The notes under the pieces are model-generated. The model did no database searches. It was not told the origin of the DNA and worked only from the letters and a program-made list of their open reading frames with translations. 64,000 nucleotides of DNA from the NCBI RefSeq assembly GCF_024298825.1, contig NZ_CP101153.1:434001-498000 (forward strand). Direction: 5' to 3'. The position numbers were made by a program, and so were the translations under genes. The stretch is from Haloglomus salinum. GTDB taxonomy: Archaea > Halobacteriota > Halobacteria > Halobacteriales > Haloarculaceae. The first letter of the stretch is position 1, and each line of letters starts with the position of its first letter. Positions 13,268 through 49,998 of this stretch are shown piece by piece.

Positions 13268-13280
13268 CTTCAGTAAAAAA

Positions 13281-16612: not shown

Positions 16613-16741
16613 ATGCCCCGCTCCATCGCCCGCGAGCATCTGTTGGGCGCCACCATCTCGGCCTACGGGCGCGGGGCCGCCCGCATCGTCCCCTGGACGC
16701 GCCCGGAACACTTCCCGCGATTCGCGGGTGGTCGGCTGTGA
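16613..16741 (+). CDS. Short basic hypothetical protein
   Basis: A 42-residue basic peptide (PRSIAREHLLGATISAYGRG...) that begins directly after the methyltransferase stop and overlaps the next GTG by 4 bp. The preceding gene ends in DGGEP, which encodes gggggtgag as its ribosome binding site. The tight packing supports translation. Function unknown. Confidence 0.5.
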   Translation: MPRSIAREHLLGATISAYGRGAARIVPWTRPEHFPRFAGGRL

Positions 16742-19410: not shown

Positions 19411-19625
19411 CCGTCGCCCGAGAGCCCCTCGTCCTCACGGTGGAGCAGCGCGACCCGTTCGGGGTCGGGCACCAGCCAGTGGGCGGCAGCCACGCCAGCG
19501 ACCGACACGCCGAGCCCGGCGGCCGACAGCCAGCCGTCGACCTGCCCGGCGATGAGCCCGCCTGCGAAGCACGACCACGCTAGCACGATCAGCGCGTACT
19601 GGGTGTTGGGGTGGGGCGTCTTCAT
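19407..19625 (-). CDS. Small two-helix membrane protein
   Basis: 72 residues with two hydrophobic segments (YALIVLAWSCFAGGLIAG and AAGLGVSVAGVAAAHWLV) and an acidic tail. It overlaps the 840-residue surface protein gene by 4 bp. It may be a small partner of that protein in the membrane. No family recognised. Confidence 0.6.
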   Translation of the reverse strand: MKTPHPNTQYALIVLAWSCFAGGLIAGQVDGWLSAAGLGVSVAGVAAAHWLVPDPERVALLHREDEGLSGDG

Positions 19626-22144
19626 TTCCCACCCCGCCACGGCAACAGGCTACCTGCGCCGCCGCTCGATGAGCCGCCCGCACCGGGGTCGCTGGGGCCC
19701 GACGAGCTGCCGAATCGACGATACGCGAGGTAGCCCAGGCCGCCGATGAGTGCCACCCCGACCGCGGTCTGACTCGTCGAGGGGCTGCCACCGCCACCAC
19801 CGGCGCCACCGCCGCCGATGGGCGCGCCCAGGAGCGCGTCGCTCCCGAGTTCGTCGGTGTAGTTGAACGTCTCACCGCCGCTCGTGTAGTTGCCCTCAAG
19901 CGTCGTGTCGCCGGGGGCATCCGAGGCGTTGCCCGTCAGGCCATCGCTCACGCACCAGGTCGTGTAGCCGACGGCGGTGTCGAACTGGCGCTCGCCGGCA
20001 TACGACTGGTTGCCGCTCGTGAGGTTGTACTCCAGGCTGGTCGTCTCGAAGGACGGGTCCCAGTACTCGACGAGGACACCCTCCGAGCCGTCGGCCTGGA
20101 TACACTCGCCGGCGAGTTGGGGCCCGAAGCCGTCGCCGTAGTCCGGGGCCGTGAAGTTCGTGTCCGGCGTGTCCGGGTAGTCGTAGTGGTACCCGTCACC
20201 GTCCCGGTCGAACGGGTCCGGCGGTGGGGCGAGGGGGCCGCCGCCGTTGACCGGGCCGACCTCGGTCGCGGTCGCCGTGCCGCTGGTCGGCGTGCCGATG
20301 GGCGTGGCGGTCGCGGTCGGCGACTCCGTCGTCGGCGTGACCGAGATCAGGAACGGGTCCGCGCGGGACTGGTTGGCTCGCCAGCCCAGTGACTCCCAGC
20401 GTGTCGAGAGGCCGCCGCTGGTCGCCTCAACGGCGACGCGGTACGGTTCCCCGTCGGTGAGGCGGACATCGGCTTGCCCGTACGCGTTGATGTCTCGTGT
20501 TGCGACCTCGGTCCAGGTGCCCGGCCCGGCCTTGAACGTCGTGCCGCCCGGGAGTGGGAGTTCCAGCGCCCGGTCGAATCGGTAGATCGTCAGCTCCGAG
20601 AGTGACGGCGGGTAGGTGTACTGGGCCTGCTCGCCGAGCTGGAACTCGCGCTCGAAGGTGTCCTGTTTGAAGAGTGTGAAGTCAACCGTTCGCGGGGAAC
20701 CGGCGACGGTGATGGATTTTGACTTGTTTTGGTAGCCGTCGGCGGTTGCGCGGACGGTATAATCGCCGTCGCTGACGCCGGAGAAGCTATAACTACCGTC
20801 GCTGGCCGTCGTCGTGGACTGGACGACACTTCCGGACTGTCGGAGCTCGATGGTAGCATCATCAACCCCCGAACCATCGGAGCTGACGGACCCCGAGACA
20901 GAGGACCCGGATTTAGATCCAACACTGTCTATCAAAACATCCGAGCCGGCATCCGACGCTAGATTTACCGCGCCTAATTGACTGACGTTCTCCTCGTCAA
21001 AACCCAGCTCTTTGCTCGTCTTTGAGTAGGTTTCATTTTCAACAGTTACAGTATAAGTTTCAGAATTGAAATCGGGAGTTATTACGAAAGTATACCAGCT
21101 ACCTTCAGAAATATTTATATTAGTGTATGCAAATCCACTTTTTTGATTCGCGGCTATTCTCACTTTTCCATTGTCTGCCATTGCCCAAATATTTGGCCCT
21201 AAGTCACGGTAGTGCGTACTGCCATTTTTATAAAATTGGATTCTTAATTCGTTTTCATTGTCGGCGGTGTCGAATGAGTTGAACTTTGCCGCAACAGAAT
21301 ATGAATCAGCAGTCTCTTCAGTAGTATTTGCAGAAATATAAACAAGGCCGCCGCTGCTTGGCGGACTAGTCAATGCGTAAGTCCCCTGATAGCTATCAGA
21401 GGATGTAACGCTATAGTAGCCAGTATCGCGCGACCACCTCGTTGTGTTAAATGTGCCACTCTCAAATCCATCCAGACTCGCTGAGAGGTCCGCGCCCGCA
21501 GCAGCCATGCCGGATGCTGAGATTGGGCCGAGCGGGAGGGCGAAGGCGCCCACGAACATCGACGTGACGACCAGCACGGCGACCGCCACGCTCCGCGCCT
21601 CCACAGTAGACAGCCGACTGGTAACGCGTCCGCCTGCCGACACGAGCGCATCGCCGCGAGCCCGCGCCGGCCCGACCCAGCGTGCTCGTGTGGAGAACAG
21701 CACGCCCGTGGCCAGCAGCGCGAGCAGGCCGACGAGCCCGCCCGTGACCACGTAGATCGACGCGGCCGCGTAGACGACGCCCGCGACCTGCGAGCGCTCG
21801 ACCGGCTCAATGCCGGCGCCGGGGCCGCCGCTCCACTGGTCCGGGTGCGGTTCCGCGGTGCCCTGGGTTATCCAGCCGTCACTCGTGCGCTCGACCAGCT
21901 CGTGGCGCAGCCAGCCAGCCTCCGAGTGGAAGACGGCCACGTCGCCCGCCTCCAGGTGGCCGGCCGGCCCGTAGACGACGACCTGCGGGACCGACTCGCC
22001 CATGCTGTCGCCTACCGTGGAAGTAATCCCGACCGGCAGCGCCGTCGACGGGCTTGCGAGGACGACCGCGGTCCCGATAACCGCGAGCAACAGCGTCACG
22101 CTCGCGAAGAGTGCGACTGCCGGTCGTTCACGGAGCCAGTTCAT
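19622..22144 (-). CDS. Sec11-type signal-peptidase domain fused to a lectin-like surface protein
   Basis: 840 residues. Residues 1-~130 match archaeal type I signal peptidase: a first membrane helix, GDSM with candidate Ser47, LEAGDVAVFH, RHELVERTSDG with candidate His81, TQGTAEPHPDQ with Asp102, and VAGVVY. Two further membrane helices follow (~135-155, ~185-205). Residues ~220-405 look like a concanavalin/LamG-type beta-sandwich, and ~410-490 match the carboxypeptidase regulatory-like fold (GSVSSDGSGVDDATIEL, DGDYTVRATADGY). A Pro/Thr/Gly region and a C-terminal membrane helix (~795-812) end the protein. Most probably an outward-facing surface protein of the element. The lectin-like part is encoded by AT-rich DNA unlike its surroundings. 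Confidence 0.8.
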   Translation of the reverse strand: MNWLRERPAVALFASVTLLLAVIGTAVVLASPSTALPVGITSTVGDSMGESVPQVVVYGPAGHLEAGDVAVFHSEAGWLRHELVERTSDGWITQGTAEPHPDQWSGGPGAGIEPVERSQVAGVVYAAASIYVVTGGLVGLLALLATGVLFSTRARWVGPARARGDALVSAGGRVTSRLSTVEARSVAVAVLVVTSMFVGAFALPLGPISASGMAAAGADLSASLDGFESGTFNTTRWSRDTGYYSVTSSDSYQGTYALTSPPSSGGLVYISANTTEETADSYSVAAKFNSFDTADNENELRIQFYKNGSTHYRDLGPNIWAMADNGKVRIAANQKSGFAYTNINISEGSWYTFVITPDFNSETYTVTVENETYSKTSKELGFDEENVSQLGAVNLASDAGSDVLIDSVGSKSGSSVSGSVSSDGSGVDDATIELRQSGSVVQSTTTASDGSYSFSGVSDGDYTVRATADGYQNKSKSITVAGSPRTVDFTLFKQDTFEREFQLGEQAQYTYPPSLSELTIYRFDRALELPLPGGTTFKAGPGTWTEVATRDINAYGQADVRLTDGEPYRVAVEATSGGLSTRWESLGWRANQSRADPFLISVTPTTESPTATATPIGTPTSGTATATEVGPVNGGGPLAPPPDPFDRDGDGYHYDYPDTPDTNFTAPDYGDGFGPQLAGECIQADGSEGVLVEYWDPSFETTSLEYNLTSGNQSYAGERQFDTAVGYTTWCVSDGLTGNASDAPGDTTLEGNYTSGGETFNYTDELGSDALLGAPIGGGGAGGGGGSPSTSQTAVGVALIGGLGYLAYRRFGSSSGPSDPGAGGSSSGGAGSLLPWRGGK

Positions 22145-22772: not shown

Positions 22773-23030
22773 TCACGCCGGCTCACCTCCCTCAAGCGCC
22801 GCCATCGCTCTGCGGCCGGTGCCGAACATGACGACCAGCGCCAGCAGTGCCACCGGCACGGCGACCAGCGGTAGCTCGCCGACCGCGAGCACGCTCCCGG
22901 CGACGACGAGGCCCGAAATACTGGCCAGCCACGCCCAGAAGCCCGCCTCGCGAGGCCTTGGCTCCCGACGCGTCTGCTCCTCGGTTGGTCGCACCGTGCT
23001 GTGTTCGTCCGCGTTCTGTGTTGCACTCAT
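22773..23030 (-). CDS. Small two-helix membrane protein, end of the membrane operon
   Basis: 85 residues. A charged N-terminus (about 35 residues) is followed by two hydrophobic helices (FWAWLASISGLVVAGSVLAV and LPLVAVPVALLALVVMFG) and a short tail EGGEPA. The tail encodes a ribosome binding site (gggaggtgag) directed at a GTG at 22,776, but the frame after that GTG does not look like a gene. A downstream gene may have been lost here. Confidence 0.6.
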   Translation of the reverse strand: MSATQNADEHSTVRPTEEQTRREPRPREAGFWAWLASISGLVVAGSVLAVGELPLVAVPVALLALVVMFGTGRRAMAALEGGEPA

Positions 23031-23089
23031 GAGTCTGAACCCGCGAGTCCGCCCAGTTCCCGCCCGATACCCCGCGTCGTCGCCATCAT
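23027..23089 (-). CDS. Possible 20-residue bridging peptide
   Basis: The frame starts at an ATG that overlaps the stop of the upstream membrane gene (ATGATG at 23,086-23,091) and its stop overlaps the start of the next one (ATGA at 23,027-23,030). It would encode MMATTRGIGRELGGLAGSDS. It may merely hand ribosomes from one gene to the next. Confidence 0.3.
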   Translation of the reverse strand: MMATTRGIGRELGGLAGSDS

Positions 23090-23541
23090 GCCAGCACCCC
23101 GCTGACGGCACTCACCAGCCAGTGCACGATGCCCGCGCCCAGGCCCATCGCGCGCTCGACGCGCAGCGTTGGAATCACGCGTGTGAGGAGCCCGAGCACC
23201 AGCGCGCCCGCGATAACGAGGAGATACCGAACCGACTGGCCGGCCGCCTCGCCCGCCTTCAGTGCCTTCCGGCCGTAGAGCGCGAACGCGATCAGGGCCA
23301 GTAGCGTCCCCGAGATGCCGATGCCGGCGGCCCCCAGGAGACTCGACACGAGGTCGCCACCGACCAGTGGCACCAGCGCGATTCCGGGGGCAAACCCGAA
23401 CAGCGAGTGCTGACTGGCTCCTCCCCCACCGCCCCGCTTGTCCCGGAGTACGCGCGCGCGTTCTGTGCGCGCGGCGCCGCAGCGCGGGCCGCCGCCGGGA
23501 GTCGCGAATCGAGCGGAAATCGAGCCGAGTTCGGCGCTCAA
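23086..23541 (-). CDS. Multi-spanning membrane protein
   Basis: 151 residues from a TTG codon, chosen because it overlaps the ATPase stop and follows a perfect ggaggtg 8 bp upstream. An N-terminal basic part (~45 residues) precedes three or four hydrophobic segments (GIALVPLVGGDLVSSLLG, ISGTLLALIAFALYG, YLLVIAGALVLGLLT, IVHWLVSAVSGVLA). Its position directly after the ATPase suggests a membrane partner of it. Confidence 0.65.
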   Translation of the reverse strand: MSAELGSISARFATPGGGPRCGAARTERARVLRDKRGGGGGASQHSLFGFAPGIALVPLVGGDLVSSLLGAAGIGISGTLLALIAFALYGRKALKAGEAAGQSVRYLLVIAGALVLGLLTRVIPTLRVERAMGLGAGIVHWLVSAVSGVLA

Positions 23542-24929
23542 ATCGACGCACCTCCGTCGGTCGCGACCGGCTGCTCGTCGCCATCCGATTCCCGGGGAAT
23601 CGGGTCGCGAGTGTTGATCTGGAGCGAGTACGACGGCATCAAGTCGGCCGCGTTCGGCCAGTCGACCTCCTCGAAGTTCTCCGGCGAGAACAGCGTGCCT
23701 TCGCCGGGGTCCTTGCCCTTGTTCACGTTGCTCTCGAAGGGTGTCGAGCCGAACCCGAGCGGTGCCGCGCCATCCGTCGTCGGGACCGCACGGCCCGCGG
23801 TGTGGAGCCGGTAGTGGATCTTCCGGCGCCAGCGCGCCGACACCGCGACCTCGCCGTGGCCGGCGCCGACTAAGGTCACGTTGCGCTTCCGGAGGTCGGC
23901 AGTGAGGTCACCGCCCAGCTGGTGGACCTTCTGGTAACTGCCGAAGGTGTCTTTCTTCGCGTCGTCGGGGGCGATGTCCTTGATCTCGTCCCAGATGAGC
24001 GCCAGCGGCGTCGACCGGTCACGGCCGTCGACGGCCGCCAGCAGGAGCGCGACCCACCAGTGTGGCGTCGGGTCGCCCGGCGCGAACAGGTCGTCGCGCT
24101 GGGCCGGTGGCTCGACGGTCCGGGATGGAATCGACTCGAAGAGCCGCTGGCAGTGTGAGAACGTTGGGTCCGGGTAGACGACGTTGATGCCGCCCGCGCG
24201 ACACTTCCGCAGCGCGTCGACGGGCCCCTGGTAGTGGACGACCTCACGGGCGAAGTTCCCGAGTTCCGGGTCCCGGCCCACAGGGTCGACCGGCCGCTCG
24301 GGCCGGAGCGTCGCGTCGATCTCGGCACGGGCCGGGAGGATCAGCCGGACCCACGGCGCCAGCGGGAGCCACTCCGAGCGCGATGGGGCGCCCCGCCAGA
24401 CGACGGCCTCGCCCATCCGGTGGCCGTTCGCTTCGAGGAATCGCTGGGCACAGGTCCGGAGCAGCGTGCTCTTGCCCTTCCCGGGCGGGCCCAGCACCAG
24501 TCCGAAGATGCCGCCCTCGGTCTGGTCGGCCGGCGGGTTGGTCCAGTAGTGCTCGTAGAGGTCCGCGACCGGGCCCCAGCCTGCACCGTCCGAGCGCCAC
24601 ACCGTCGGGTCGTAGTGCGGGATGCCGTGGAGCCGCCGGATGCTGGCGGCGTCGGTGTGGGCGTTGCCGTTCTCCGGCGTCAGCTCCGCACTCCGCAGGT
24701 CGGCGCCGATGGCGACCGGCCGCCCGGCGTCGTCGTGGACGACCTCGCCGACGGCCAGCTCCCAGGCGTGGTGATCGCGAGCATACGCGTCGGCCATCTC
24801 ACGCCCCGTATCCACGAGGTCGCCTCGGAGCCCGTAGTCCGGCGTCCGCGGGTCCTCGTGCGGCCGCAGGTCGATGTCGTCGTCGGGCGTGTTCGGTACG
24901 TCGTCGTCCGGGTGGGTGTCGTCGGTCAT
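23538..24929 (-). CDS. P-loop ATPase of the membrane operon (HerA/FtsK-like size class)
   Basis: 463 residues with an acidic N-terminus. Walker A is GPPGKGKST at residues 147-155 and Walker B is PLALIWDEIKD at about 308-318. There is a later GAGHGEVAVSARWRRK segment where DNA-pumping ATPases carry sensor/arginine residues. It is the only ATPase in the operon of membrane proteins, so it probably powers DNA packaging, translocation or particle assembly. It could belong to the HerA/FtsK superfamily, but no diagnostic motif beyond the P-loop pair is clear. It ends in DGGASI, whose codons form the next ribosome binding site. Confidence 0.75.
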   Translation of the reverse strand: MTDDTHPDDDVPNTPDDDIDLRPHEDPRTPDYGLRGDLVDTGREMADAYARDHHAWELAVGEVVHDDAGRPVAIGADLRSAELTPENGNAHTDAASIRRLHGIPHYDPTVWRSDGAGWGPVADLYEHYWTNPPADQTEGGIFGLVLGPPGKGKSTLLRTCAQRFLEANGHRMGEAVVWRGAPSRSEWLPLAPWVRLILPARAEIDATLRPERPVDPVGRDPELGNFAREVVHYQGPVDALRKCRAGGINVVYPDPTFSHCQRLFESIPSRTVEPPAQRDDLFAPGDPTPHWWVALLLAAVDGRDRSTPLALIWDEIKDIAPDDAKKDTFGSYQKVHQLGGDLTADLRKRNVTLVGAGHGEVAVSARWRRKIHYRLHTAGRAVPTTDGAAPLGFGSTPFESNVNKGKDPGEGTLFSPENFEEVDWPNAADLMPSYSLQINTRDPIPRESDGDEQPVATDGGASI

Positions 24930-24931
24930 GG

Positions 24932-25783
24932 TCACATGGTCTTGCTGCGGCTCTCGGTCTCGCGGTCGCTCGACTCCGCAGCGTGGTCGTAGCGAGCCCG
25001 CGTCCCCGCGCGGAAGCGGCCGCACAGCTTCGCCGCGACCGTCTCGCGAGCGCGTCGATGCACCGGTGGGTCCGGGTGGGCCCCGTCGCCGCCAGCCAGG
25101 AGCACCCGCCGCATCGCCGGGTCGTTGACCGCGTCGGCGACCCAGTTGCTCGGGAGGGTGCCGTGACAGGCCAGCTCCAGCACGTCGCCCCAGCGGAGAA
25201 TCGCCGAGAGGTCCTGGAAGCCAGCCAGCAGGCCCACCAGCGCCTGCTGCTGGTGGCGCTCGATAGCCGAGAGCGAGGGCCGCATCGCGACGTGGCGCTC
25301 GCGCTCGGGTTTGGTCGGGGCGTCCTCGCCGGACCGGCTCGGGGCGTGTTCCTGGGCGTCGTCACGGAGCGCGCGGATGGCCTTCGAGTGAGCCGGCGCC
25401 AGCGTCGAGGCCGCCAGCCGGGCCCGGATGACACGGGGGGCCACGCCGTCGACGGCGTCCGGCCGGTCGAGCAGCGCGCCGACCAGCGGCGTCGACTCCT
25501 CGCGTGCGGCGGCGACCATATCGGCGTGGATGGCCTCGTACAGCGCCTTCGGGAGTCGGCCCAGCGTCGCGCCGGTGACCGAGACCAGCCACGCGAGCAC
25601 GTCAGCGCGCGAGTTGAACCCGTCCAGCAGCGCCTCGCGGTGCTCCCGGTGGTCACGGGAGAGCCGTTCGAGCGCGGGCTGGCGGCGCTCCTGCAGGTCG
25701 CTCGCGAATGCCTGGGCGCCGACCGGGTCCGCCATCGGGTCCGGAGCGTCACTCGGTAGCCAGCGGCGGACGCCACGGCTCAC
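24932..25783 (-). CDS. Helical hypothetical protein preceding the ATPase
   Basis: 283 residues from a GTG that overlaps the stop of the 682-residue gene by 4 bp. It is soluble, rich in Ala, Arg and Asp, and almost all alpha-helical (SRDHREHREALLDGFNSRADVLAWLV; ERHQQQALVGLLAGFQDL). No known domain. It ends 2 bp before the ATPase ATG, and is probably an accessory to the ATPase or a cytoplasmic adaptor of the membrane complex. Confidence 0.65.
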   Translation of the reverse strand: MSRGVRRWLPSDAPDPMADPVGAQAFASDLQERRQPALERLSRDHREHREALLDGFNSRADVLAWLVSVTGATLGRLPKALYEAIHADMVAAAREESTPLVGALLDRPDAVDGVAPRVIRARLAASTLAPAHSKAIRALRDDAQEHAPSRSGEDAPTKPERERHVAMRPSLSAIERHQQQALVGLLAGFQDLSAILRWGDVLELACHGTLPSNWVADAVNDPAMRRVLLAGGDGAHPDPPVHRRARETVAAKLCGRFRAGTRARYDHAAESSDRETESRSKTM

Positions 25784-27828
25784 GGTTCCTCACCTCCCGC
25801 GTCGCCGCCGTCTCTCGGCCCGGTGGCGAGGATGCTCGCGGCCTCCGAGCGGCTGATACTGCCGTTCTGGAGCAGCCGCGCGACCCGGTTCTCGTCGGGG
25901 TGGTCGGTGTCGCCGCCGGGCGTCGTCGTCCCGCCGGCCACGTCGAGGCCGTCGCCCCCACCGTCGGCCGCCGGCGTCTTCCCGGCGCCACGGTCGGCGC
26001 GGTCGCGGCCGGCATCGTCACCGAGAATCGTCGAGAGGAACGAGCCCGCACGCTCGCTCGCCTTCTCGGCGGCCCGGCGCTCGGTCTGGGCCTCGGATTC
26101 CAGCCGCTTCTGCTCGGATTCCTCGGCCGATTTGGCCGCGTCGATTTCGCGGGCCAGCCCCAGCGCCGTCGCGAACGCGCGGCGCATATGGACGGTCGCG
26201 AACGGGATGACGGCACTCCCGTCGGACGCGCCGATGAACGCCAGGCCCCAGCCCAGCAGCGCGACCAGCACGGCCAGCGGCACCGCGCCCATGCCGGTCG
26301 GGGCCAGGACGGCGTAGGTCGCCCCGCCGACCAGAATCGGCAGCGCGATGCGGACGAAGTTCCCGAGGAACGTGTCCCGGGACTTGAGCGTGAACGACGG
26401 CGCCGAGTAGCTCGACAGGAGCGACCGGCTCGTATCGGCTTCGGGGTCGACCAGGAGCAGCTCGTCGTGGTGGCCGGACATCCGGATGCGCGAGTCGGCG
26501 TCCGCCCAGTTCTCGACGGTCGCCGTGCCGCCCAGGGCTCGCGCGAGGAATCGCAGCCAGCCCGGGAGCACGACCGCCATGTCCCCATCGTCATCGCCGT
26601 CGCCCTCCTCGGCGCCGGGCATCGGCGCGAGCAGGTAGACCCGCGAGGTCGCCGACAGCCAGTCGTGCCCGCGGTCACCGCTCGGAGCTGGGGCCTTCGA
26701 CACGTCGGGTTTGAGCGCGAGCGCACGTCGGATGCGCCGCTCGCCGACCAGCTCGATGCCGACGATGAGGAACGCCAGGAACGTCGCGACGGCGAGCACC
26801 ACCGGCGCCGCCGCGACCAGTGCCTGCCCGACCGTCAGCCACAGGCTCAGTGCGAGCCCGGTGTAGAGCAGCGCTATCGCCGCCGCAGTCTTGATCCAGC
26901 CGTAGCCCGGAGGTGCGCGGGCCCGGTAGAGGGCCGCGCTGGCAGTTCCGACGCCGGTGAGCGCGCCAGCCACGACGGGCAGCACCAGCGTCAGCATCCC
27001 CCACTCCAGCAGGTCCGAGTTGCTCGGGTCGTCCGGGACCGGAGCGTCTTGACTCAGTGCCGAGGAGCGATGCTGGAAGTGCCAGCGCGCGATGGTCTCG
27101 CCGTCGTCGGTCCGGAGCAGCAGCGCCACCTGTCGGGCGTGGTCGTTCGTCGGCGGCAGCGCCACCGAGACGTTCGACCAGCCACGCGAGAACGCGACGG
27201 ACTGCTGCCGGGTGGAGACGTTCCGGACCGTCGTCGAGCCGTTCGCGTCCGTGCTCGTGCGGTAGGCCACGACGACGGCGGTGAAGCTGTCGGCGTCGAG
27301 CAGGTCCGGGTCCTGCGAGAGAATCGTCCGGAGCCGGACCGTGTCACGTCGGACGGTCGTCGACGGCGAGATGAACCGCCACGCGCTCCGGGCGCCTTCC
27401 TTCGCGGCCGGGTTCGAGGCCGGCGTGTACGTCGCCCAGAGGCTCATCCCGGGCGGGTCGGCGATGCGGTAGCCCGCCGGCGAGCCCGAGACGCGCTGGC
27501 CGGGTTTCTGCAGCTCCGAGAGCGTCCACGTCGTGTCGTCCGCGTTGGCGACCTCGACCGGGCCAGCGCTGGCCGGGGTCGGTGTCGCCGTTGCCGTCGC
27601 CGTCCGGGTAGGGGTCTGTGTCGGTGCCGGCGTCGGCGTCGCGGTCGCAGTCGACTGGGGCGTCACGGCCAGCGGCGGCGTCGCGGTGGGCGATGTGGTC
27701 GGTGTCGTCGTGGCGTTGTTCGCGGCGGCCGCCGGGGCGACACCGACCGCGAGCGCCGGCGCGAGCAGGCTGGCCATCGCGACCAGCGACAGCACGACGG
27801 CGCAGACCCGGCGACCGCCGTCGCTCAC
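25780..27828 (-). CDS. 682-residue signal-peptide and multi-spanning membrane protein
   Basis: A Sec signal peptide (VVLSLVAMASLLAPALAVG) is followed by a Thr/Pro-rich stalk (TATPTPAPTQTPTRTATATA), an extracellular beta domain (about 95-275) and a block of at least five membrane helices (about 283-360 and 515-570). The C-terminal ~110 residues are charged, with a coiled-coil stretch (AKSAEESEQKRLESEAQTERRAAEK written here in part) that should lie inside the cell. This architecture links an outside domain with a cytoplasmic coiled coil and fits a central membrane component of the putative particle or transfer machine. Confidence 0.7.
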   Translation of the reverse strand: MSDGGRRVCAVVLSLVAMASLLAPALAVGVAPAAAANNATTTPTTSPTATPPLAVTPQSTATATPTPAPTQTPTRTATATATPTPASAGPVEVANADDTTWTLSELQKPGQRVSGSPAGYRIADPPGMSLWATYTPASNPAAKEGARSAWRFISPSTTVRRDTVRLRTILSQDPDLLDADSFTAVVVAYRTSTDANGSTTVRNVSTRQQSVAFSRGWSNVSVALPPTNDHARQVALLLRTDDGETIARWHFQHRSSALSQDAPVPDDPSNSDLLEWGMLTLVLPVVAGALTGVGTASAALYRARAPPGYGWIKTAAAIALLYTGLALSLWLTVGQALVAAAPVVLAVATFLAFLIVGIELVGERRIRRALALKPDVSKAPAPSGDRGHDWLSATSRVYLLAPMPGAEEGDGDDDGDMAVVLPGWLRFLARALGGTATVENWADADSRIRMSGHHDELLLVDPEADTSRSLLSSYSAPSFTLKSRDTFLGNFVRIALPILVGGATYAVLAPTGMGAVPLAVLVALLGWGLAFIGASDGSAVIPFATVHMRRAFATALGLAREIDAAKSAEESEQKRLESEAQTERRAAEKASERAGSFLSTILGDDAGRDRADRGAGKTPAADGGGDGLDVAGGTTTPGGDTDHPDENRVARLLQNGSISRSEAASILATGPRDGGDAGGEEP

Positions 27829-28721
27829 TCGTCATCACCTCCGTCGGCATCCTGCGGCGTCTCGTCACTCCAACCAGGCCCGACGGCCGCGGCGAACGCG
27901 ACCGGCGTCTCGCCCCCGTCGGCGACTGTCTCGGCGCTGCTGGATGGGCCGGTCGCGTCGGCTTCGTCGGCGATGGTGGTCGCCTCCGGGGCCGGCTCGA
28001 TGTGCTCGGTCAGCTCCGAGCCGACGCCCCGGACCCGCGCCGGGATGTCCCACTCGCCGACCGCCGTCGGTATCACGTCGCGGTCGCCGTCGGCCCACGC
28101 ACGGTCGGCCTGCTTGCAGGCGCCACAGCGCCAGCGCTGCTCGGCCTCGGTCGCGTCCGCGGCATCCGGGCGGACCGAGGCCCCGAGGCCACAGACGAGC
28201 CGTGAGGCCGCCCGTGCGCCGGGCACGGCGACGAGAGCCGTCAGGACGAAGCCACCGATGGCCCCGCCGACGGATGGCTCAGCGGCACCCAGGCCCACGA
28301 GGGTCCGGACCGACATCCCGAGCAGGAGCACCGCGAGCGTGAGGAGGCCCCCAGCCGCGAACGCGTCACCTCGAATCGTCGAGGAGTAGCGCAGTGCGCC
28401 GAGCCAGCCGAACCGGCCCTCGCGAACGCGCTCGACACGGTGGGCCTCCGGGCCCGAGACTCGCGACGGGATGCCGTGTGGCGCCGGCCAGCCGCCCGTC
28501 GGGCCTATCGCCTCGTCCGGATGGCCGCCGTGGCCGGGGCGCTCGGTCGCCGCCGGGCGCTCACCGAGGCCGATGTCGGCCAGCCGGTCACGCAGCCAGA
28601 TTGCGAGCCGGTGGCGGTAGTCCGCCCACGACCCGGGCGTCCGGCCGGCCTCGCGGTAGGCCTCCTCGTAGTGGTCGGCGTCCGCCGGGCGCTCGGGCGC
28701 ACCGGGCATCGGGTCAGTCAC
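27825..28721 (-). CDS. Membrane protein with CxxC motif
   Basis: About 298 residues from the GTG at 28,721 (an ATG at 28,709 gives 294). The N-terminal ~110 residues are soluble and include EAYREAGRTPGSWADYRHRL. Two to three hydrophobic helices follow (LLTLAVLLLGMSVRTLVGLG, AIGGFVLTALVAVPGA), then CGACKQADRAW, which may bind a metal, and an acidic tail ending in DADGGDDE. The codons of that tail contain the gacggaggtgatg ribosome binding site for the 682-residue gene. Confidence 0.65.
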   Translation of the reverse strand: MTDPMPGAPERPADADHYEEAYREAGRTPGSWADYRHRLAIWLRDRLADIGLGERPAATERPGHGGHPDEAIGPTGGWPAPHGIPSRVSGPEAHRVERVREGRFGWLGALRYSSTIRGDAFAAGGLLTLAVLLLGMSVRTLVGLGAAEPSVGGAIGGFVLTALVAVPGARAASRLVCGLGASVRPDAADATEAEQRWRCGACKQADRAWADGDRDVIPTAVGEWDIPARVRGVGSELTEHIEPAPEATTIADEADATGPSSSAETVADGGETPVAFAAAVGPGWSDETPQDADGGDDE

Positions 28722-29448
28722 GGCGCTCTTGCACCTCCTGGGCCGCGTGGACCGCGACCAGCCCGCCGAGGATGACGACGACCGCCACCGGCACACGACC
28801 GAGCGCCAGCTTCGACGCGCCGGCGGCGACCAGCGCCAGCAGCGCGACGGCGTAGATGCCCGACACCAGGAACGACACCGAGCCCAGCGTCCCCGACGAC
28901 TGGGCCCGGAGCGACGGGTCGTCGTCACTCCCACGCAGTCGTGAGACCGTGTAGACCGCGATGAGCACCAGGGCCGCGATGGCGACCATCGCCGCGGCCG
29001 CCTGCATCGGCAGCCCGTTCAGCAGCGCGACCGGCAGGAAGCCGACCGCGCTCGTCCCGGTCTCGTCGCTCGTCCGCGTCGCGAGATACACCACGACGAC
29101 GACCAGGATGGCACCGGCGACCAGCTGCACCGCACTGATACCGATGAACCCGCGGAGACCCAGCGCCCCCAGCGCCGCCGTCAGCAGGTTGCTGCCGGCG
29201 AGCGGGTGGTTGCCGAGCCAGCCGAACAGGCCGCCGGCCACGTCGGCGAAGAAGACGAGCGACGCGAACGCGCCGCCCAGCACCGCCGCCACCAGGCCAC
29301 GGGCCCAGGTCTGGGTGCGGTCGACGGCCTCGTCGGCATCGACATCGTCCTTCCCGATGGCGGCCGTGAACCGCAGGCCGATTCCGAGGACGGCCACGCC
29401 GACCAGGACCGCGAAGCCGACCAGCAGGATCATGCCGAGGCTCGCCAT
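28714..29448 (-). CDS. Polytopic membrane protein (about six helices)
   Basis: About 244 residues, starting at the ATG at 29,448 or the GTG one codon earlier. Hydrophobic helices are seen at LGMILLVGFAVLVGVAVLGI, GLVAAVLGGAFASLVFFADV, LVAGAILVVVVVYLA, AAAAMVAIAALVLIAVYTV, SFLVSGIYAVALLALVAAG and VPVAVVVILGGLVAV. Cytoplasmic loops are charged (IGKDDVDADEAVDRTQTW; LRGSDDDPSLRA). It resembles the polytopic proteins common in archaeal secretion and particle modules but no family is recognised. Confidence 0.65.
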   Translation of the reverse strand: MASLGMILLVGFAVLVGVAVLGIGLRFTAAIGKDDVDADEAVDRTQTWARGLVAAVLGGAFASLVFFADVAGGLFGWLGNHPLAGSNLLTAALGALGLRGFIGISAVQLVAGAILVVVVVYLATRTSDETGTSAVGFLPVALLNGLPMQAAAAMVAIAALVLIAVYTVSRLRGSDDDPSLRAQSSGTLGSVSFLVSGIYAVALLALVAAGASKLALGRVPVAVVVILGGLVAVHAAQEVQERRD

Positions 29449-29576
29449 CACCGACCACCCCCCGGATGCGGGGCTGGGCCCCAGGTCGGGCCTTGTGGAG
29501 CCTGCGGCGGCCGTCGATCACGCCGACGGATGGCTCCGTCAGCTGCCGATACATGTGTCTCGTTGGTGTGGATCAT
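29448..29576 (-). CDS. Small hydrophilic peptide
   Basis: 42 residues beginning MIHTNETHVSAADG, basic and Pro/Gly-rich. Its stop overlaps the GTG/ATG of the polytopic protein gene (tgatgg), and it is preceded by an ~85-bp non-coding stretch. It may be a leader for translation of the next gene. Confidence 0.4.
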   Translation of the reverse strand: MIHTNETHVSAADGAIRRRDRRPPQAPQGPTWGPAPHPGGGR

Positions 29577-29662
29577 GTCTCTCTCCGTTGTCGTGTCCGC
29601 GTCGGTGCCGAGCCGGGCGCTCCGGCTGGGGATGATGCGACAGGTCGTTGCGAGGTGGCCGG

Positions 29663-29956
29663 TCAGTCGCCGTCGACGAGCCGGTCGGCCCGGCGCCGCA
29701 GCCGGACGATAAGGGCGATGGCGAACAGCGGCACCGCGATGACGATGCCCGCCGTCACCAGCCAGGGCGGAAACACCGGCACCACCCTGTTGAACCGCGC
29801 CCCGGCGCCGACGACCGACATCAACGTCGGGCCGAGCAGCAGCGCCGCCTGGATGAGCGGGTCCAGAAACCCACTCGCCAGCGCGGCGATGCTCGACAGC
29901 ACCCCGACCGTCGCCGACACCGGCCCGGCCGCCTCGCGTGCGTTCTTCTTGTCCAT
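29663..29956 (-). CDS. Small membrane protein
   Basis: 97 residues with two or three hydrophobic helices (LIQAALLLGPTLMSVVGAG, PWLVTAGIVIAVPLFAIALI) and a C-terminal basic cluster (VRLRRRADRLVDGD). The charge pattern places the C-terminus inside. It belongs to the run of small membrane proteins in this operon; function unknown. Confidence 0.6.
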   Translation of the reverse strand: MDKKNAREAAGPVSATVGVLSSIAALASGFLDPLIQAALLLGPTLMSVVGAGARFNRVVPVFPPWLVTAGIVIAVPLFAIALIVRLRRRADRLVDGD

Positions 29957-29983
29957 ATCGAGTCGCCCGCGTCTCCGTGCCGC

Positions 29984-30535
29984 TCATCGGAGCAGCCCTC
30001 CCGCTCCCGGTAGGACGCGGTCTACCAGGAGCGACAGTCCGACCACGACGCCGCCCGCTGCGGCCGCGGTTACCCCCGCAGCGACGACCGGAGCGAACGG
30101 CCCCAATGGCGTGAACGCGCCCGCGAGGCCCGCGTAGAACCCGCCGATGACGCCCAACGTGCCCGAGACGACCGGGCGGGCGCCCTCGACGCCGGCAACG
30201 GCGAGCTTGAACAGCTCGTTGCCCAGCAGGATGAACGGCGCCGCGAACGCGCCGGCGAGCCACAGCCCGCCGCCGATGATGACGTTCACGAACCACCGCC
30301 GGATGATGGCCAGGATGGCCGGAATCACGCCGCCTTGCTGAGCGACGAAGTTCCCGAACGCCAGCAGCGGGCCCGCGACCGCGGCGAGCTTGCTCAGCCG
30401 CTTGGCCGTCGTCGTGCTGAACTGTTTGACCGTCTCGCGTGTCGCCTCGTTGGTCTCCTCGCCGGCGGGGACGCCGGCGCCCAGGGCCGCGCGGAACAGG
30501 TCCAGCGTCGAGATGCTGTCGTCGTCGTCAGGCAC
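29984..30535 (-). CDS. Membrane protein of the membrane operon
   Basis: 183 residues from a GTG overlapping the upstream stop by 8 bp; the upstream tail encodes its gaggtgac ribosome binding site. An acidic start (PDDDDSISTLDLFRA) and an amphipathic region precede four hydrophobic helices (VIIGGGLWLAGAFAAPFILL, GTLGVIGGFYAGLAGAF, VVAAGVTAAAAGGVVVGLSL). It shares the general design of the 30,528 and 30,996 products. Confidence 0.65.
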   Translation of the reverse strand: MPDDDDSISTLDLFRAALGAGVPAGEETNEATRETVKQFSTTTAKRLSKLAAVAGPLLAFGNFVAQQGGVIPAILAIIRRWFVNVIIGGGLWLAGAFAAPFILLGNELFKLAVAGVEGARPVVSGTLGVIGGFYAGLAGAFTPLGPFAPVVAAGVTAAAAGGVVVGLSLLVDRVLPGAGGLLR

Positions 30536-30920
30536 GGGCCGTCACCTCGCCGAAGACCCGCAGCGCCACGTACGCCGAGAGCAGCATCACCGCGACGCCG
30601 ATGACGATGGCGACCGGTCCGAAGCTCCGGATGGACGGCACCGCAGCCTGACCGGCGCCGGCGAGTACGGTCGCGCCGCCGCCCAGCAGCGCCGCGACGA
30701 TGCCACGGACGGCCGCGCCGGCGAAGCCGATGAGCAACTCGACGCCGTCGACGAACCGAGCGATGAGCATCGCTATCGAGCCGACGAAGACCCGGACGAT
30801 GCCGCCGAAGACGAACAGGCCGAGGTCGGACCAGCGGATGCCGGACTCGCCGACGTAGCCGCTCGTCGGGAGCGTCACGCCCCCGCCGCCACCGCCGCCC
30901 GGCGCCGGCGCATCAGCCAT
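30528..30920 (-). CDS. Membrane protein of the membrane operon
   Basis: 130 residues: a Gly/Pro-rich start (APGGGGGGGVTLPTSGYVG), then hydrophobic helices (SDLGLFVFGGIVRVFVGSIA, IGFAGAAVRGIVAALLGG, VAIVIGVAVMLLSAYVALRV). The central hydrophobic block of 60-70 residues resembles that of the 30,996 and 29,984 proteins, suggesting three divergent copies of one membrane-protein family. Confidence 0.65.
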   Translation of the reverse strand: MADAPAPGGGGGGGVTLPTSGYVGESGIRWSDLGLFVFGGIVRVFVGSIAMLIARFVDGVELLIGFAGAAVRGIVAALLGGGATVLAGAGQAAVPSIRSFGPVAIVIGVAVMLLSAYVALRVFGEVTARA

Positions 30921-30993
30921 CGCGGGTCACCTCTCTCGACGGCGCCGTGGCTGTCCGCACCGCCGCGAACCGAGCGCGGCGGGGGCCAGCCAT
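30913..30993 (-). CDS. Possible 26-residue peptide between membrane genes
   Basis: The frame from the ATG at 30,993 begins 3 bp after the stop of the 157-residue gene and overlaps the next start. The segment contains gagaggtgac, the ribosome binding site of the gene at 30,920. Translation of the peptide itself is uncertain. Confidence 0.25.
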   Translation of the reverse strand: MAGPRRARFAAVRTATAPSREVTRDG

Positions 30994-30995
30994 CG

Positions 30996-31469
30996 TCAGT
31001 CCTCCCCTTCCTCCTCGGTTCCAAGAGGGCCGAAATCGATCCCGGTCCCGAGGAAGAAGCTGTCCGTCGTCTCGCGCTGCTCGCGGAACTTCGCGACCAG
31101 GAACGCCGCGAGGAGCACCATCGCCACACCGACCGGGAGCCCGACCAGGGCGAGCTGCGACCCGGGGCCGACCGCCGAGGCCGTCCCGAGTGCGCCCGCG
31201 AAGATGGGGCGAATCAGGCTGTTGAAGAACCCGACGAGGAGGTTCTGTGTGCCGACCGCCGCGCCGCCGATGACGGCGACGAAGAAGTCGACCACACCGC
31301 CCATGATGCGGACGAGGCCGCGGGCGCCACCGAAGATGATGACGCCGATGCTGGTCGTCAGGATGGCCACGAGGGACTCCGCAGCCCGGGCCCGCGCGAA
31401 GAGGCGCGTGATACGTGACTCCTCGGTCGACGAGATGCTGACCGACAGCGGGTCGTCCGAGGCGGACAT
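30996..31469 (-). CDS. Membrane protein of the membrane operon
   Basis: 157 residues. A soluble N-terminus (STEESRITRLFARARAA) is followed by hydrophobic segments (SLVAILTTSIGVIIFGGA, IMGGVVDFFVAVIGGAA, LVGFFNSLIRPIFAGALG, LVGLPVGVAMVLLAAFLVA) and an acidic tail (GPLGTEEEGED). It starts 3 bp after the stop of the spike-like gene. Likely a structural membrane protein that accompanies the spike-like product. Confidence 0.65.
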   Translation of the reverse strand: MSASDDPLSVSISSTEESRITRLFARARAAESLVAILTTSIGVIIFGGARGLVRIMGGVVDFFVAVIGGAAVGTQNLLVGFFNSLIRPIFAGALGTASAVGPGSQLALVGLPVGVAMVLLAAFLVAKFREQRETTDSFFLGTGIDFGPLGTEEEGED

Positions 31470-31472
31470 CGG

Positions 31473-33041
31473 TCAGTTCCCCCCGCCCATCCAGCTGAAC
31501 AGCTTGAAGCTCCCGAGCCCGAGCAGCCCGGCCAGCCCGCCCAGGATGCCGAACCCGAACAGGCCGTTCCCGCCACCCTGGCGCGGCGGCCCGCCGGCAA
31601 TCGCGCCCTGGGGCGCCATGACCTCATCGGCCTCGCTGTCGGTGTAGAGGATCTCCGCACCGATGGCCGCGTCGTGGTCACTCGAGGCCGAGAGCCCGGT
31701 CGCGAGTTCGACGCGGTCGCCGATGGCGCCGCTGAACTGACTCGTCGCGTCGGTCGTCGACGCCTCGGAGTAGTTGCCGGCGTAGCCGGTGGCGTAGTCG
31801 ACGCTGACGTACTGGGAGCTGGGCTGGCGCTGCTCGGCGACCAGCGTCAGGGTCCCGTGAGTCACGTCGACCGGTGCCGGGATGTCCCACACCGCGAGGG
31901 GTTCGCCCTCCAGCCGGTCGCTGTAGCTGGCGTAGTTCTTCGCGTCCGTGAAGTTCACCTCGCTGCCGTCGGCCATCGCGAGCGGGTAGTTGACCGTCGC
32001 GTCACCCGCGCCGACGACGAGGTCGTGGACGTGGGCGTCACCGAAGTGGTCGGCGAGGCCGTCCAGGGACCGCATCCGGACGGCGCCGCCGTCGATGTTG
32101 GTCCGGGTCTCGGTCTCGTAGCGGTCGTCCGAGTCGTCCTGGTAGGCGACCGTGCCGAAGGTCTTCGTCTCCTTCGAGGAGATGTCCATCCCGGTGATGG
32201 CGAGGTCGGCGTCGGCGTCCGTGACGTTCAGCCGCACGTCCTCGATGTCGGTCATCGTCCCGTCGCCGGAGCCCTGGACGCCGTTGGCCGAGACGAGCGT
32301 GTCCACGCGGACGCTCGCGTAGAAGGCGCCCGTCTCGTTCGCGAACGTCTCCGCGTTGGTGTCGGCCGCGCCCTCGGAGATGTTCGCGTAGGCGTAGTCA
32401 CCGTCGGCGTCGACGACCTCGAAGCGGACCTCGGCGCTGCTGTCGAGCGTGTTGACCTTGCCGGCCGTCGTCAGCACGCGCTTCCGGGCGTTGTCGAGGC
32501 TGACGTTGTCCGAGTAGGTGAACGACACCACGTCGCCGCCGGTCATGCTGCCGTCGGTGGCGAGCTGGGTCGGCGCCGCGCGGAAGTTCGGGGCCGCGCT
32601 CCACTCGGTCGCGCTGCCCTTCGCCGAGGCACCGCCGCCGATGGTCCAGTCGCCCTCCTCAGCGACGAACGACTGGTCCTCGACGTTGGCCTCGTCGTCG
32701 GTGACCGGGCCGTAGAGGTCCGGGTCGTCGATGTACGCCGGCGACACCTGGATGGGCGCGTCGGCGTCGGAGGCGTTCACCTCAGCTGGCAGGTCGGTGT
32801 TGCTCCCGTCGTCGGCTTCGTACGCGAGCGGATCGTCACCGTGCTCGCCCATCCGATGCTCCGCGATGGTCACGTCGGTCTCCTCGACCCACGCCGAGGG
32901 ACTCTCGTCGCTGTCCGGGTTGATCGGTGGCGCGCCGTTCCCGCGGTCGTCGTGGTCGGCGGCGACCGGCGCCGCGACCATCGAGGTCGCCAGCAGGATG
33001 GCGATGAGCGCGACGAAGCCCTGCTTGGCCAGCGCTCTCAT
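31473..33041 (-). CDS. Spike-like secreted protein with C-terminal membrane anchor
   Basis: 522 residues. A clear Sec signal peptide (GFVALIAILLATSMVAAPVAA) is followed by ~460 acidic, beta-rich residues with many N-glycosylation sequons (NVS, NIS, NET, NVT, NYS), a glycine-rich hinge and a final hydrophobic helix (GFGILGGLAGLLGLGSFKLF) with a short tail. This is the layout of haloarchaeal S-layer-like or pleolipovirus spike proteins, but sequence similarity to either is not evident to me. It is the first large gene of the membrane operon and the best candidate for the main exposed protein of a particle or vesicle. Confidence 0.75.
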   Translation of the reverse strand: MRALAKQGFVALIAILLATSMVAAPVAADHDDRGNGAPPINPDSDESPSAWVEETDVTIAEHRMGEHGDDPLAYEADDGSNTDLPAEVNASDADAPIQVSPAYIDDPDLYGPVTDDEANVEDQSFVAEEGDWTIGGGASAKGSATEWSAAPNFRAAPTQLATDGSMTGGDVVSFTYSDNVSLDNARKRVLTTAGKVNTLDSSAEVRFEVVDADGDYAYANISEGAADTNAETFANETGAFYASVRVDTLVSANGVQGSGDGTMTDIEDVRLNVTDADADLAITGMDISSKETKTFGTVAYQDDSDDRYETETRTNIDGGAVRMRSLDGLADHFGDAHVHDLVVGAGDATVNYPLAMADGSEVNFTDAKNYASYSDRLEGEPLAVWDIPAPVDVTHGTLTLVAEQRQPSSQYVSVDYATGYAGNYSEASTTDATSQFSGAIGDRVELATGLSASSDHDAAIGAEILYTDSEADEVMAPQGAIAGGPPRQGGGNGLFGFGILGGLAGLLGLGSFKLFSWMGGGN

Positions 33042-33220
33042 CGGCGCCCCTCCAGGTCGAAGATCTCGAACAGCTCCTCGTCGACCGTCGCGAGGTCGCC
33101 GACCGGGAGCGTCGAGGCGATGTCAGCGCGCGTCGCCGCGCTGTCGATACCACTGGGTCGTGCCTCCTGCGAAAAGGAGGTCGAGAGGGGCTCGCGCCCG
33201 CCCTCTGGTGTTGCGCTCAT
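33038..33220 (-). CDS. Small acidic protein heading the membrane operon
   Basis: 60 residues, Ser/Glu-rich, no membrane segment. Its stop overlaps the ATG of the spike-like gene by 4 bp. It is the first gene behind the promoter region with the 11-bp repeats. Possible regulator or scaffold; no family recognised. Confidence 0.6.
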   Translation of the reverse strand: MSATPEGGREPLSTSFSQEARPSGIDSAATRADIASTLPVGDLATVDEELFEIFDLEGRR

Positions 33221-34457: not shown

Positions 34458-34565
34458 CTGATTGTCACCACATGACACGGTCTTGGCTGCCTCGCCCCCG
34501 GCTCAGACTTCGTTTTGGACGGGGCCGTTTGTAACACTCAGAGATTCGGTTTCTCGTGACCGACT

Positions 34566-35508: not shown

Positions 35509-35517
35509 CGCGCCCTG
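35509..35517. repeat. Right 9-bp target duplication
   Basis: Second copy of cgcgccctg, pairing with 34,566-34,574. Confidence 0.7.
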
Positions 35518-35542: not shown

Positions 35543-36151
35543 TCACGAGTACGTCGTTTGGTTCCCCATCACCTCGCCAATCCGCGCCTCGGTCGCTTCC
35601 TTCAGATACGGCTCGATAGCCGAGTAGTCGCTCCAGCCGCCGACCGACATCATCGTCCGCACGTCCCGGCCGCGCTCGACGAGGTGATAGGTCGCGAACG
35701 ACCGGCGGAGATCGTGACTGCTCACCGAGCGCCAGCGCTCCTCGCCCAGCTGGTCGGCGATGGCGTCGGTCGCGTTGTCGACCCAGCGCCGCACCGTCGG
35801 CGTCGAGCGTGGGACCCAGGGCTCGTCGCGGCCGAGGTCTCGCTCTCGCGTGTACTTGTTCAGGTCCTCGGCGACGCGGTCGGGCATCCAGGCGTCTCGT
35901 AGCTTCCGGGCGCCGCCCTCGGTGTTCTTGCCCCGAACCTCGAAGAGCCAGCACTCGCCCTCCTCGCTCCAGCGGAGATGCTTGTCGGCCGGGTAGGGTA
36001 CCTCGTGGGCCCGCAGGCCGCACCGCCCCATCAACTGGATGGCGACCTCGCGCATCCAGTCGTCGCGACCGGCCTCGCGTTCGAGCCGGGCGAGTTCGTC
36101 CTGGTCGAGCCAGCACTTCGTGACAGAGCCGGAGTCATCCACGCGAACCAT
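35543..36151 (-). CDS. Short tyrosine recombinase (catalytic domain only)
   Basis: 202 residues from the ATG at 36,151 (upstream frame codes poorly). The catalytic set is visible: Arg in RCGLRAHEV, Lys in VRGKNTEGG, His-x-x-Arg in SSHDLRRSFATY, the Trp of VGGWSDYSAI (at the usual His/Trp position) and Tyr in IEPYLKEAT. It lacks most of the N-terminal core-binding domain of full-length integrases. It lies in the middle of the element, away from either att site, so it may resolve multimers, invert a segment, or be the integrase of a nested older element. Confidence 0.85.
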   Translation of the reverse strand: MVRVDDSGSVTKCWLDQDELARLEREAGRDDWMREVAIQLMGRCGLRAHEVPYPADKHLRWSEEGECWLFEVRGKNTEGGARKLRDAWMPDRVAEDLNKYTRERDLGRDEPWVPRSTPTVRRWVDNATDAIADQLGEERWRSVSSHDLRRSFATYHLVERGRDVRTMMSVGGWSDYSAIEPYLKEATEARIGEVMGNQTTYS

Positions 36152-36350
36152 GAGCGTCTTATCCAGAGTAGACGGGCACAAACCCTGCGGTGGGCGCGGT
36201 GATCGACGTAGGTTCACCCCGGATTCCGCGGATTCTTGAGCGGGAAGTGCAAGAACTCGCTTACGCTGATGCGGAAGACAGGGGACCGACATCTGTCCTG
36301 CGTAGTGGAAGGATTAACAACTGTGTGTCATGGGTGAGTAGGTATCCAAC
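36152..36350. other. Gap between the short recombinase and the 160-residue gene
   Basis: About 200 bp with no gene seen. The plus-strand stretch before 36,351 is AT-richer (gaaggattaacaactgtg) and probably holds the promoter of the following gene. Confidence 0.3.
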
Positions 36351-39049: not shown

Positions 39050-40057
39050 ATGATCGACGAGCCAGCCGTCTTCGACATCGAGGGGTTCGTCCCGAGCGAC
39101 GTGGTGCATCGGGACGGCCCGCTCGATGCCCTCTCGTCCTCGCTCGATGCCCTCCTCCACCACGGCACCGGCCGGCAGACGCACATCTTCGGGCCCTCCG
39201 GCGCGGGCAAGACCTGCATCGCCCGCTACGTGCTCGACCAGCTCGGAGATGAGCGCCCCCACATCCACGGGACCTACATCAACTGCTGGAACCACTACGC
39301 CACGAGCGCGTTGCTCTACCAGCTGGCCGCCGGCGTGGATGCGGTGGCTGACGTTCGCCCGGGAGCCGCGGCCCACGACGAGCTGCTCCAGCGGGTGCGT
39401 GAGGCCGACGACTTCGGCTACGTCGTCGTCCTCGACGAGGTCGACCAGATCGAGAGCCCGGATGTCCTCTACCAGCTGTATCGGATGCCCCACGTCCACT
39501 GCATCTACATCGCCAACGACGAGCAGGCGTTCTTCAGCCGGTTGGATGGCCGGATGGCCAGCCGACTGCGGACCGGCGAGATCGTCACGCTGGATCGCTA
39601 CACGCGCGAGGAGTTGCTCGCCATCCTCGACCGGCGGGCCGAGGCCGGGCTGGCGTTCGGCGCGACGACGGAGGCGTCGCTGGGCCGGATCGCCGAGCTG
39701 GCGGCCGGCGATGCCCGACTCGCCGTCGAGACGCTGTATCAGGCCGCCCGGAAGGGGCAGGCCCGTGGCCACGCCTCGATCACGGAGGCCGACATCCACG
39801 ACGCCGAGCCCGTCGCGCGGTCGGAGTTGCGACAGAAGACCCTCTCACAGCTGACGCGGCATCAGCGCATCCTGTTCGAGGCGCTCGAGGCGGCTGGTGA
39901 GCCACTCCAGATGGGGGCACTGGAGTCGGCGTATCGGGCCCGGGTGTCGAGTCCGCGGTCGACGAAGACGCTCCGGCGGTATCTCTCGAAGCTGGCGCAG
40001 TACAATCTGGTCGCCATCGAGGGTGAAACCAGCGGGCGGACGTACGAGGCGCAGTAG
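39050..40057 (+). CDS. orc: Orc1/Cdc6-type replication initiator
   Basis: 335 residues from the ATG at 39,050. The N-terminus EPAVFDIEGFVPSDVVHRDG is the family's lead-in. Walker A is GPSGAGKT (48-55), Walker B is YVVVLDEVDQI, and the C-terminal winged helix is LTRHQRILFEALEAAGEP...SPRSTKTLRRYLSKLAQYNLV. These proteins bind origin repeats and load the MCM helicase. Its presence implies that the element can replicate on its own when excised. It is shorter than chromosomal Orc1 proteins (~400+), as usual for plasmid copies. Confidence 0.92.
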   Translation: MIDEPAVFDIEGFVPSDVVHRDGPLDALSSSLDALLHHGTGRQTHIFGPSGAGKTCIARYVLDQLGDERPHIHGTYINCWNHYATSALLYQLAAGVDAVADVRPGAAAHDELLQRVREADDFGYVVVLDEVDQIESPDVLYQLYRMPHVHCIYIANDEQAFFSRLDGRMASRLRTGEIVTLDRYTREELLAILDRRAEAGLAFGATTEASLGRIAELAAGDARLAVETLYQAARKGQARGHASITEADIHDAEPVARSELRQKTLSQLTRHQRILFEALEAAGEPLQMGALESAYRARVSSPRSTKTLRRYLSKLAQYNLVAIEGETSGRTYEAQ

Positions 40058-42227: not shown

Positions 42228-42265
42228 CGACGTACCGTCTTCCAAATCACATTCAATCCGACACA

Positions 42266-49985: not shown

Positions 49986-49998
49986 AACCGCCCCAACC
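49986..49998 (+). repeat. attR: attR core
   Basis: Second exact copy of ccgccccaaccca. The flanking DNA does not resemble a tRNA, so this is the displaced copy of the tRNA 3' end and the right boundary of the element. Confidence 0.85.

Follow-up and report, generated by a model that had tools for sequence, protein, structure and literature searches.

A conserved spike, membrane-protein and ATPase operon on haloarchaeal integrative elements as a candidate particle, vesicle or DNA-transfer module

The Pleolipoviridae (HRPV-1, HRPV-3, His2) and the related Thalassapleoviridae are among the closest known systems to the locus described below. The virions of pleolipoviruses are enveloped and enter the cell by means of a fusogenic spike (PMC10919331). 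Plasmids of the pR1SE type likewise encode membrane and surface proteins together with an ATPase, which is VirB4/HerA-like (PMC10818511). The pT26-2 plasmid family, with hosts in the Thermococcales and Methanococcales, comprises integrative archaeal elements of 17–38 kb in which the genes for membrane proteins and an ATPase form a syntenic block. For this membrane/ATPase core a role in DNA or protein transfer has been proposed (PMC6972569).

An operon with components of the same classes is located in the window, i.e. the whole 64,000-nt stretch of Haloglomus salinum DNA that was analysed. It occupies 33220–22773 of the minus strand and consists of 13 genes, most of which overlap or almost abut, with stop/start overlaps of 4–8 nt at g01/g02, g04/g05, g08/g09 and g11/g12. 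High third-position GC and a strong codon-position GC bias are found throughout. The genes are, in order of transcription:

33038..33220, minus: g01, acidic protein of 60 aa (net charge −7), first gene of the operon
31473..33041, minus: g02, spike of 522 aa with signal peptide (9–27), acidic ectodomain and C-terminal anchor (494–512), net charge −64
30996..31469, minus: g03, membrane protein of 157 aa with 3 TM
30528..30920, minus: g04, membrane protein of 130 aa with 3 TM, paralogue of g03 by profile
29984..30535, minus: g05, membrane protein of 183 aa in the position of a third paralogue
29663..29956, minus: g06, membrane protein of 97 aa with 2 TM
28714..29448, minus: g07, membrane protein of 244/245 aa with 6 TM
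27825..28709, minus: g08, protein of 294 aa with 2 TM, start codon uncertain
25780..27828, minus: g09, membrane protein of 682 aa
24932..25735, minus: g10, soluble adaptor-like protein of 267 aa (283 aa if the GTG start at 25783 is used)
23538..24929, minus: g11, P-loop ATPase of 463 aa (Walker A GPPGKGKST, DEIKD), phrog_22963 family
23086..23373, minus: g12, small membrane protein of 95 aa (151 aa if the TTG start at 23541 is used)
22773..23030, minus: g13, protein of 85 aa with 2 TM

A first, sequence-only reading had counted about fourteen overlapping genes on one strand; the strand and the exact span of 22773–33220 are correct, but there are 13 genes. Its small acidic protein, its anchored signal-peptide spike, the further membrane proteins (97 aa, 245 aa, 294 aa and two more small ones), the 682-residue protein with an outside domain and an inside coiled coil (here a charged helical tail), the helical adaptor (here a soluble protein) and the P-loop ATPase were all recovered. 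Its three similar membrane proteins of 130–183 residues are reduced to the pair g03 and g04, whereas a similarity of g05 to these two is not detectable in Haloglomus salinum. In several relatives (L041, L043), the third position is occupied by a recognisable paralogue of the small membrane proteins. The predicted topology of g09 starts with a signal peptide and an ectodomain of about 250 aa, followed by a TM segment, a cytoplasmic part, a TM pair and a charged helical tail; altogether five further TM segments are predicted beyond the signal peptide. The closest named relative is Haloglomus halophilum (G393), whose ATPase (L002) is 96% identical. Compared with the same genes of this organism, g02 to g12 show dN/dS values of 0.10–0.33 and are thus maintained proteins under purifying selection. 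Together with a gene order kept in more than 20 other genomes, these values indicate that the operon is more than a chance assembly.

The operon sits inside an integrated element of 36.7 kb (13255–50000). The other features of this element are:

13193..13268, plus: tRNA-Val(GAC), integration target, with the left att core CCGCCCCAACCCA at 13255–13267 in its 3' end
15335..16612, plus: N6/N4 DNA methyltransferase
16738..18477, plus: DUF7845 protein with a winged helix, conserved partner on the opposite strand
19622..22144, minus: surface protein of 840 aa with a carboxypeptidase-regulatory-like beta domain, located where the relatives have their giant surface protein
35543..36292, minus: second, smaller tyrosine recombinase
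39050..40057, plus: Orc1/Cdc6-type replication initiator
41727..42841, plus: two type IV pilin-like genes
48919..49953, plus: tyrosine integrase, at the right end
49988..50000, plus: right att core of 13 nt, identical to the left one, 35 nt past the integrase stop codon

Since a further 13-nt match to tRNA-Val occurs at 16466 within the window, the att repeat taken alone is weak evidence. The mobility of the element is decisively carried by the comparison with two congeners and not by this repeat by itself. In H. halophilum, the same arrangement of tRNA and integrase spans 35.9 kb. The other congener, G392, contains a tandem pair of elements (L086–L090, G392:C1 3229000–3316000), each of 42,382 bp and 99.99% identical to one another, with three att cores, at both ends and between the copies. 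Such an array results either from integration of a circle, as a recent double integration, or from assembly of integrated and circular copies; in both cases a circle is implied, so that a circular form exists or existed recently. Hence an integrase, an att repeat at a tRNA gene and sequence evidence for a circular form, the features by which an integrative mobile element is recognised, are all present.

Of 392 genomes sampled across the host's order, 62 contain relatives of the ATPase, and a sparser sample of the whole phylum yielded them in 15 haloarchaeal genomes and three other archaea. The order spike, two to three small membrane proteins of the g03 type, g09, g10 and ATPase is kept in 23 loci. 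Relatives of g02 and of the g03 family are present in all 23 and g09 in 22 (it is absent from L039), whereas g01 is known, among the loci compared, from the two congeners only. The relatives of g07 are shorter (104–157 aa) and present at some loci as two adjoining genes. Downstream of the ATPase, a giant surface protein of about 700–1430 aa and g12 usually follow. The same order recurs in three loci of greater divergence (L117, L118, L120), L119 and L121 being covered in part; apart from plasmids that carry a solitary ATPase, almost all loci compared keep it. Nine further genomes were inspected over 60 kb each for the layout of the element, and in six of them (G324, G378, G066, G296, G146, G348) the module has a tRNA gene on one side and an integrase on the other; in G324, G296 and G146 the 3' core of the tRNA is repeated 66–170 nt past the integrase. 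The module-bearing elements use different tRNA sites, often carry Orc1/Cdc6 and measure about 23–42 kb where both ends are known. Furthermore, the module also exists outside a recognisable chromosome: on contig G368:C24 (24.4 kb), which carries a whole element and has the same 13 nt at both of its ends, on G218:C7 (31 kb) and, in two copies, on a circular 163-kb plasmid of Halosegnis marinus. For contig G373:C3, a permuted gene order suggests circularity; no ORF clearly spans the putative circle junction.

What is new here is that the operon is part of a family of elements which are integrated at tRNA genes and have defined att sites, an integrase and often Orc1/Cdc6. An earlier description of this family was not found in the collections searched and the open-access literature, although subscription journals may hold one. 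With ATPase and spike alignments as queries, module relatives were absent from the 2.9 million contigs of IMG/VR, and they were not found in phage records either. When 146 genomes of the host's family were searched for CRISPR-like short matches to the module, low-complexity coding repeats dominated the output.

With the pleolipoviruses the module shares an anchored acidic spike with a signal peptide, a small multi-TM protein and further membrane proteins, and in both a P-loop ATPase closes the single gene block; the elements share with them the integrase, integration at tRNA genes and, in some cases, Orc1/Cdc6. Unlike in pleolipoviruses, the spike comes first and the membrane proteins behind it, membrane proteins are more numerous, the g10 adaptor and the giant surface protein are added, and element sizes reach 42 kb, compared with the 7–17 kb quoted for pleolipoviruses (PMC10919331). 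Profiles were built from 10–12 pleolipoviruses. As a positive control, they detect a true provirus beside the element of G348 with 85–342 bits. This genuine pleolipovirus-like block (VP3, spike, P6, P7, ATPase) occupies positions 14406–19570 of L113. The VP3 profile finds it with 93 bits and no module protein; likewise, the spike ectodomain shows no sequence match to the profiles of VP4-like spikes, and the P7 profile matches nothing in the module. A relation of g09 to ORF6/P6 (hhalign up to 65%) was considered and rejected, as the top ranking is lost once the signal peptide is removed. For the ATPase alone a faint likeness remains, namely to VP8 (hhalign 48–57% over part of the domain); the post-Walker-A part of this profile yielded 10 of the best 20 ORFs, all of them weak. 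In several members of the family a motif of the type GH-x3-D-[IV]-H-x2-[IV]-R-[RH] is shared with pleolipovirus ATPases. A degenerate or divergent pleolipovirus provirus would account for the common component classes, the faint ATPase relation and this motif, but profiles that recognise the genuine provirus beside the G348 element find nothing significant in the spike or for VP3 and P7 in the module, and the P6 match of g09 depends on a signal peptide, so this origin is highly improbable. The earlier judgement that the set is not obviously homologous to pleolipoviruses therefore stands, with the ATPase as the one faintly related component.

The same judgement on pR1SE is borne out on two stand-ins, pHTUR05, which is of the pR1SE type by gene layout, and pHALXA03 of Halopiger xanaduensis (named in PMC10818511). 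No module profile matched an ORF of either, and the set of at least five of the six core genes (ORF6, 8, 17, 21, 23, 24) that marks pR1SE/apHPV membership was not found, as judged on these two plasmids. Both kinds of system are haloarchaeal elements that encode an ATPase and numerous membrane and surface proteins; moreover, pHTUR05 encodes a protein with signal peptide, ectodomain and TM segment shortly before its ATPase. In contrast to pR1SE/apHPV, the module contains no recognised subtilase, no two-cluster layout and no homologous core protein, and its ATPase belongs to another family than the VirB4/HerA-like one. A plasmid-vesicle system strictly of the pR1SE type, which would turn host membrane into plasmid-carrying vesicles without a virion-like stoichiometry, agrees with the joining of membrane and surface proteins to an ATPase on such plasmids (PMC10818511) and with the occurrence of the module on free contigs or plasmids. 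With no homology of the module profiles to pHTUR05 or pHALXA03 proteins, no recognised subtilase and a cluster that does not open with an ORF6-like giant protein, it is decidedly unlikely; mechanistically it is a neighbour and not the opposite of the explanation preferred below.

None of the module proteins was recognised as belonging to a conjugation, secretion or capsid family. In Pfam and NCBIfam, g11 matches no VirB4, VirD4/TraG or HerA family, and the combination of VirB4, coupling protein and relaxase that marks a type IV secretion system was not found when the module and the larger proteins of the element were scanned with both collections, small ORFs being covered in part. A strong match to a host secretion system or to a conjugation apparatus had been set beforehand as the refuting test of the sequence-only reading; the search gave none. 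The pT26-2 family was represented by pMEFER01, whose conserved-block proteins, ATPase included, match no module profile; the seven core genes of the family, including the t26-14p ATPase, were not found in the module, as judged on this plasmid. A rival reading is contact-dependent DNA transfer by a conjugation-like or DNA import/export pore, in which the TM proteins would form a channel, the ATPase would pump DNA, and the spike and the giant surface protein would grip a partner cell. Such a machine would suit an integrative element with a large set of TM proteins and an ATPase, the adhesin-like look of the giant surface proteins and the transfer role proposed for the similar pT26-2 core (PMC6972569). 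It is nevertheless unlikely, given that VirB4, VirD4/TraG and HerA matches as well as a relaxase are missing among the scanned proteins, that the spike resembles a pleolipovirus spike in size and anchoring, and that the spike head recombines in the manner of a host-range cassette.

The one confident family of g11, phrog_22963, also occurs in other archaea. In the archaeal genomes G485, G520 and G560 (L114, L115, L116; GC 41–50%) a homologous ATPase is present (hhalign 99.7%), adjoining small TM proteins and recombinase-like genes in two of the three, where it may mark a related kind of element. The spike, g03, g09 and g10 families were undetected at these ATPase loci. Nine of the ten plasmid matches of the ATPase lie on Haloarcula plasmids, and the four small plasmids pNG100–pNG400 of H. 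marismortui (L033, L034) carry one copy each. Since pNG100 and pNG400 have the ATPase and the rest of the module was not found there with the profile set, the family must have a wider use. Weak scores connect g11 to STAND-like NTPases and to the defence protein Mad8 (22.6 bits, PADLOC). A defence reading of the Mad8 match was rejected, as the PADLOC scan of the module proteins yielded nothing beyond it. More broadly, a cell-surface machine for adhesion, defence, signalling or secretion, of benefit to host or element and not concerned with DNA transfer, could draw on these scores, on the selection that keeps genes in integrated elements and on the pilin genes of the element; it remains improbable, as the module goes with mobile elements that occupy different tRNA sites and PADLOC offers the weak Mad8 match alone.

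Particles are favoured by the comparison of the spikes in the window and in G392. Over the first 475 residues or so their identity amounts to 70–92% per block of 40 residues, then it falls to 35% in the anchor; g03, g09, g10 and the ATPase are only 28–36% identical. From this fall it can be concluded that the spike head has a line of inheritance separate from that of the anchor and the membrane partners, and the head follows the host genus. Separate inheritance agrees with a head that recognises the host and is mounted on a shared membrane machine; in pleolipoviruses the structure of the spike tracks the host family (PMC10599561). The recombination boundary in the spike is the strongest functional hint for particles. 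Structure models, for which the alignments comprised the window and L002 only, reached a pLDDT of 31.5 for the spike and 27.5 for the ATPase, values too low for a fold to be read from them.

Taken together, the operon serves, with somewhat better than even probability, the morphogenesis and dissemination of haloarchaeal integrative elements that form an undescribed family and resemble enveloped capsid-less viruses or plasmid vesicles. The att layout, the conserved module, its architecture, the inheritance of the spike head and the lack of a recognised conjugation, secretion or capsid family support this reading. The likeness to pleolipoviruses and plasmid vesicles is one of anatomy, and by the tests made the module is a member of neither. 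Particle formation and function are deduced from the genes, and a machine for particles, vesicles or DNA transfer is still the class of explanation that suits the operon best. Against an interpretation as a dissemination module count the occurrence of the ATPase family without the module on Haloarcula plasmids, its weak STAND and Mad8 scores, the missing homology of module proteins to a known virion or vesicle protein (the faint likeness of the ATPase apart), the lack of a relative in IMG/VR or phage records, and element sizes above those of pleolipoviruses.

Such a dissemination module could work as follows. The element would integrate into tRNA genes by its tyrosine integrase and excise as a circle, as the sequence comparisons support, and the module proteins would insert into the cell membrane, where the small multi-TM proteins and the large g09 would form a patch. 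The acidic spike, often together with the giant surface protein, would be displayed outside as a host-recognition head. Because g10 has no predicted TM segment and its gene lies between those of g09 and the ATPase in the loci examined, it may link membrane and ATPase; the latter would dock through g10 and the cytoplasmic parts of g09 and either load or translocate circular DNA or drive budding. The patch would then depart as a particle carrying the element to a new cell. Somewhat short of an even chance is given to the more specific proposal that these elements are pleomorphic viruses or virus-like plasmids of a new haloarchaeal family, common in the genomes of haloarchaea but missing from the searched virus collections, with their own spike and membrane proteins and an exchangeable spike head that determines the host range; such a family may have arisen independently of the Pleolipoviridae.

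If this is true, an entire family of mobile elements with an envelope and no capsid has escaped notice, possibly as a result of virus-mining tools seeking known hallmark genes; no relative turned up in IMG/VR, in contrast to the frequency of the ATPase in the host's order. Beside pleolipoviruses and pR1SE, it would then provide a third haloarchaeal case for the question of how membrane-vesicle viruses and plasmids are related, as well as a natural experiment on the exchange of spike heads. The hosts Haloglomus and Halosegnis are culturable.

Some minor observations concern the element itself. The 4.1 kb at 14814–18916 with the methyltransferase and the DUF7845 protein are 99.7% identical to H. 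halophilum, compared with about 86–91% in the surrounding element, which marks a recent exchange of this stretch. An insertion of about 1.8 kb with a transposase (33764–35551, transposase at 34606–35484) lies upstream of the operon; it is not present in H. halophilum and breaks no module gene. Type IV pilin-like genes are multiplied on this and related elements (L086, L088, L092), with several copies in G392. Immediately outside the element, a tandem repeat array with a period of 35 nt extends from 51867 to 52209 of the window.
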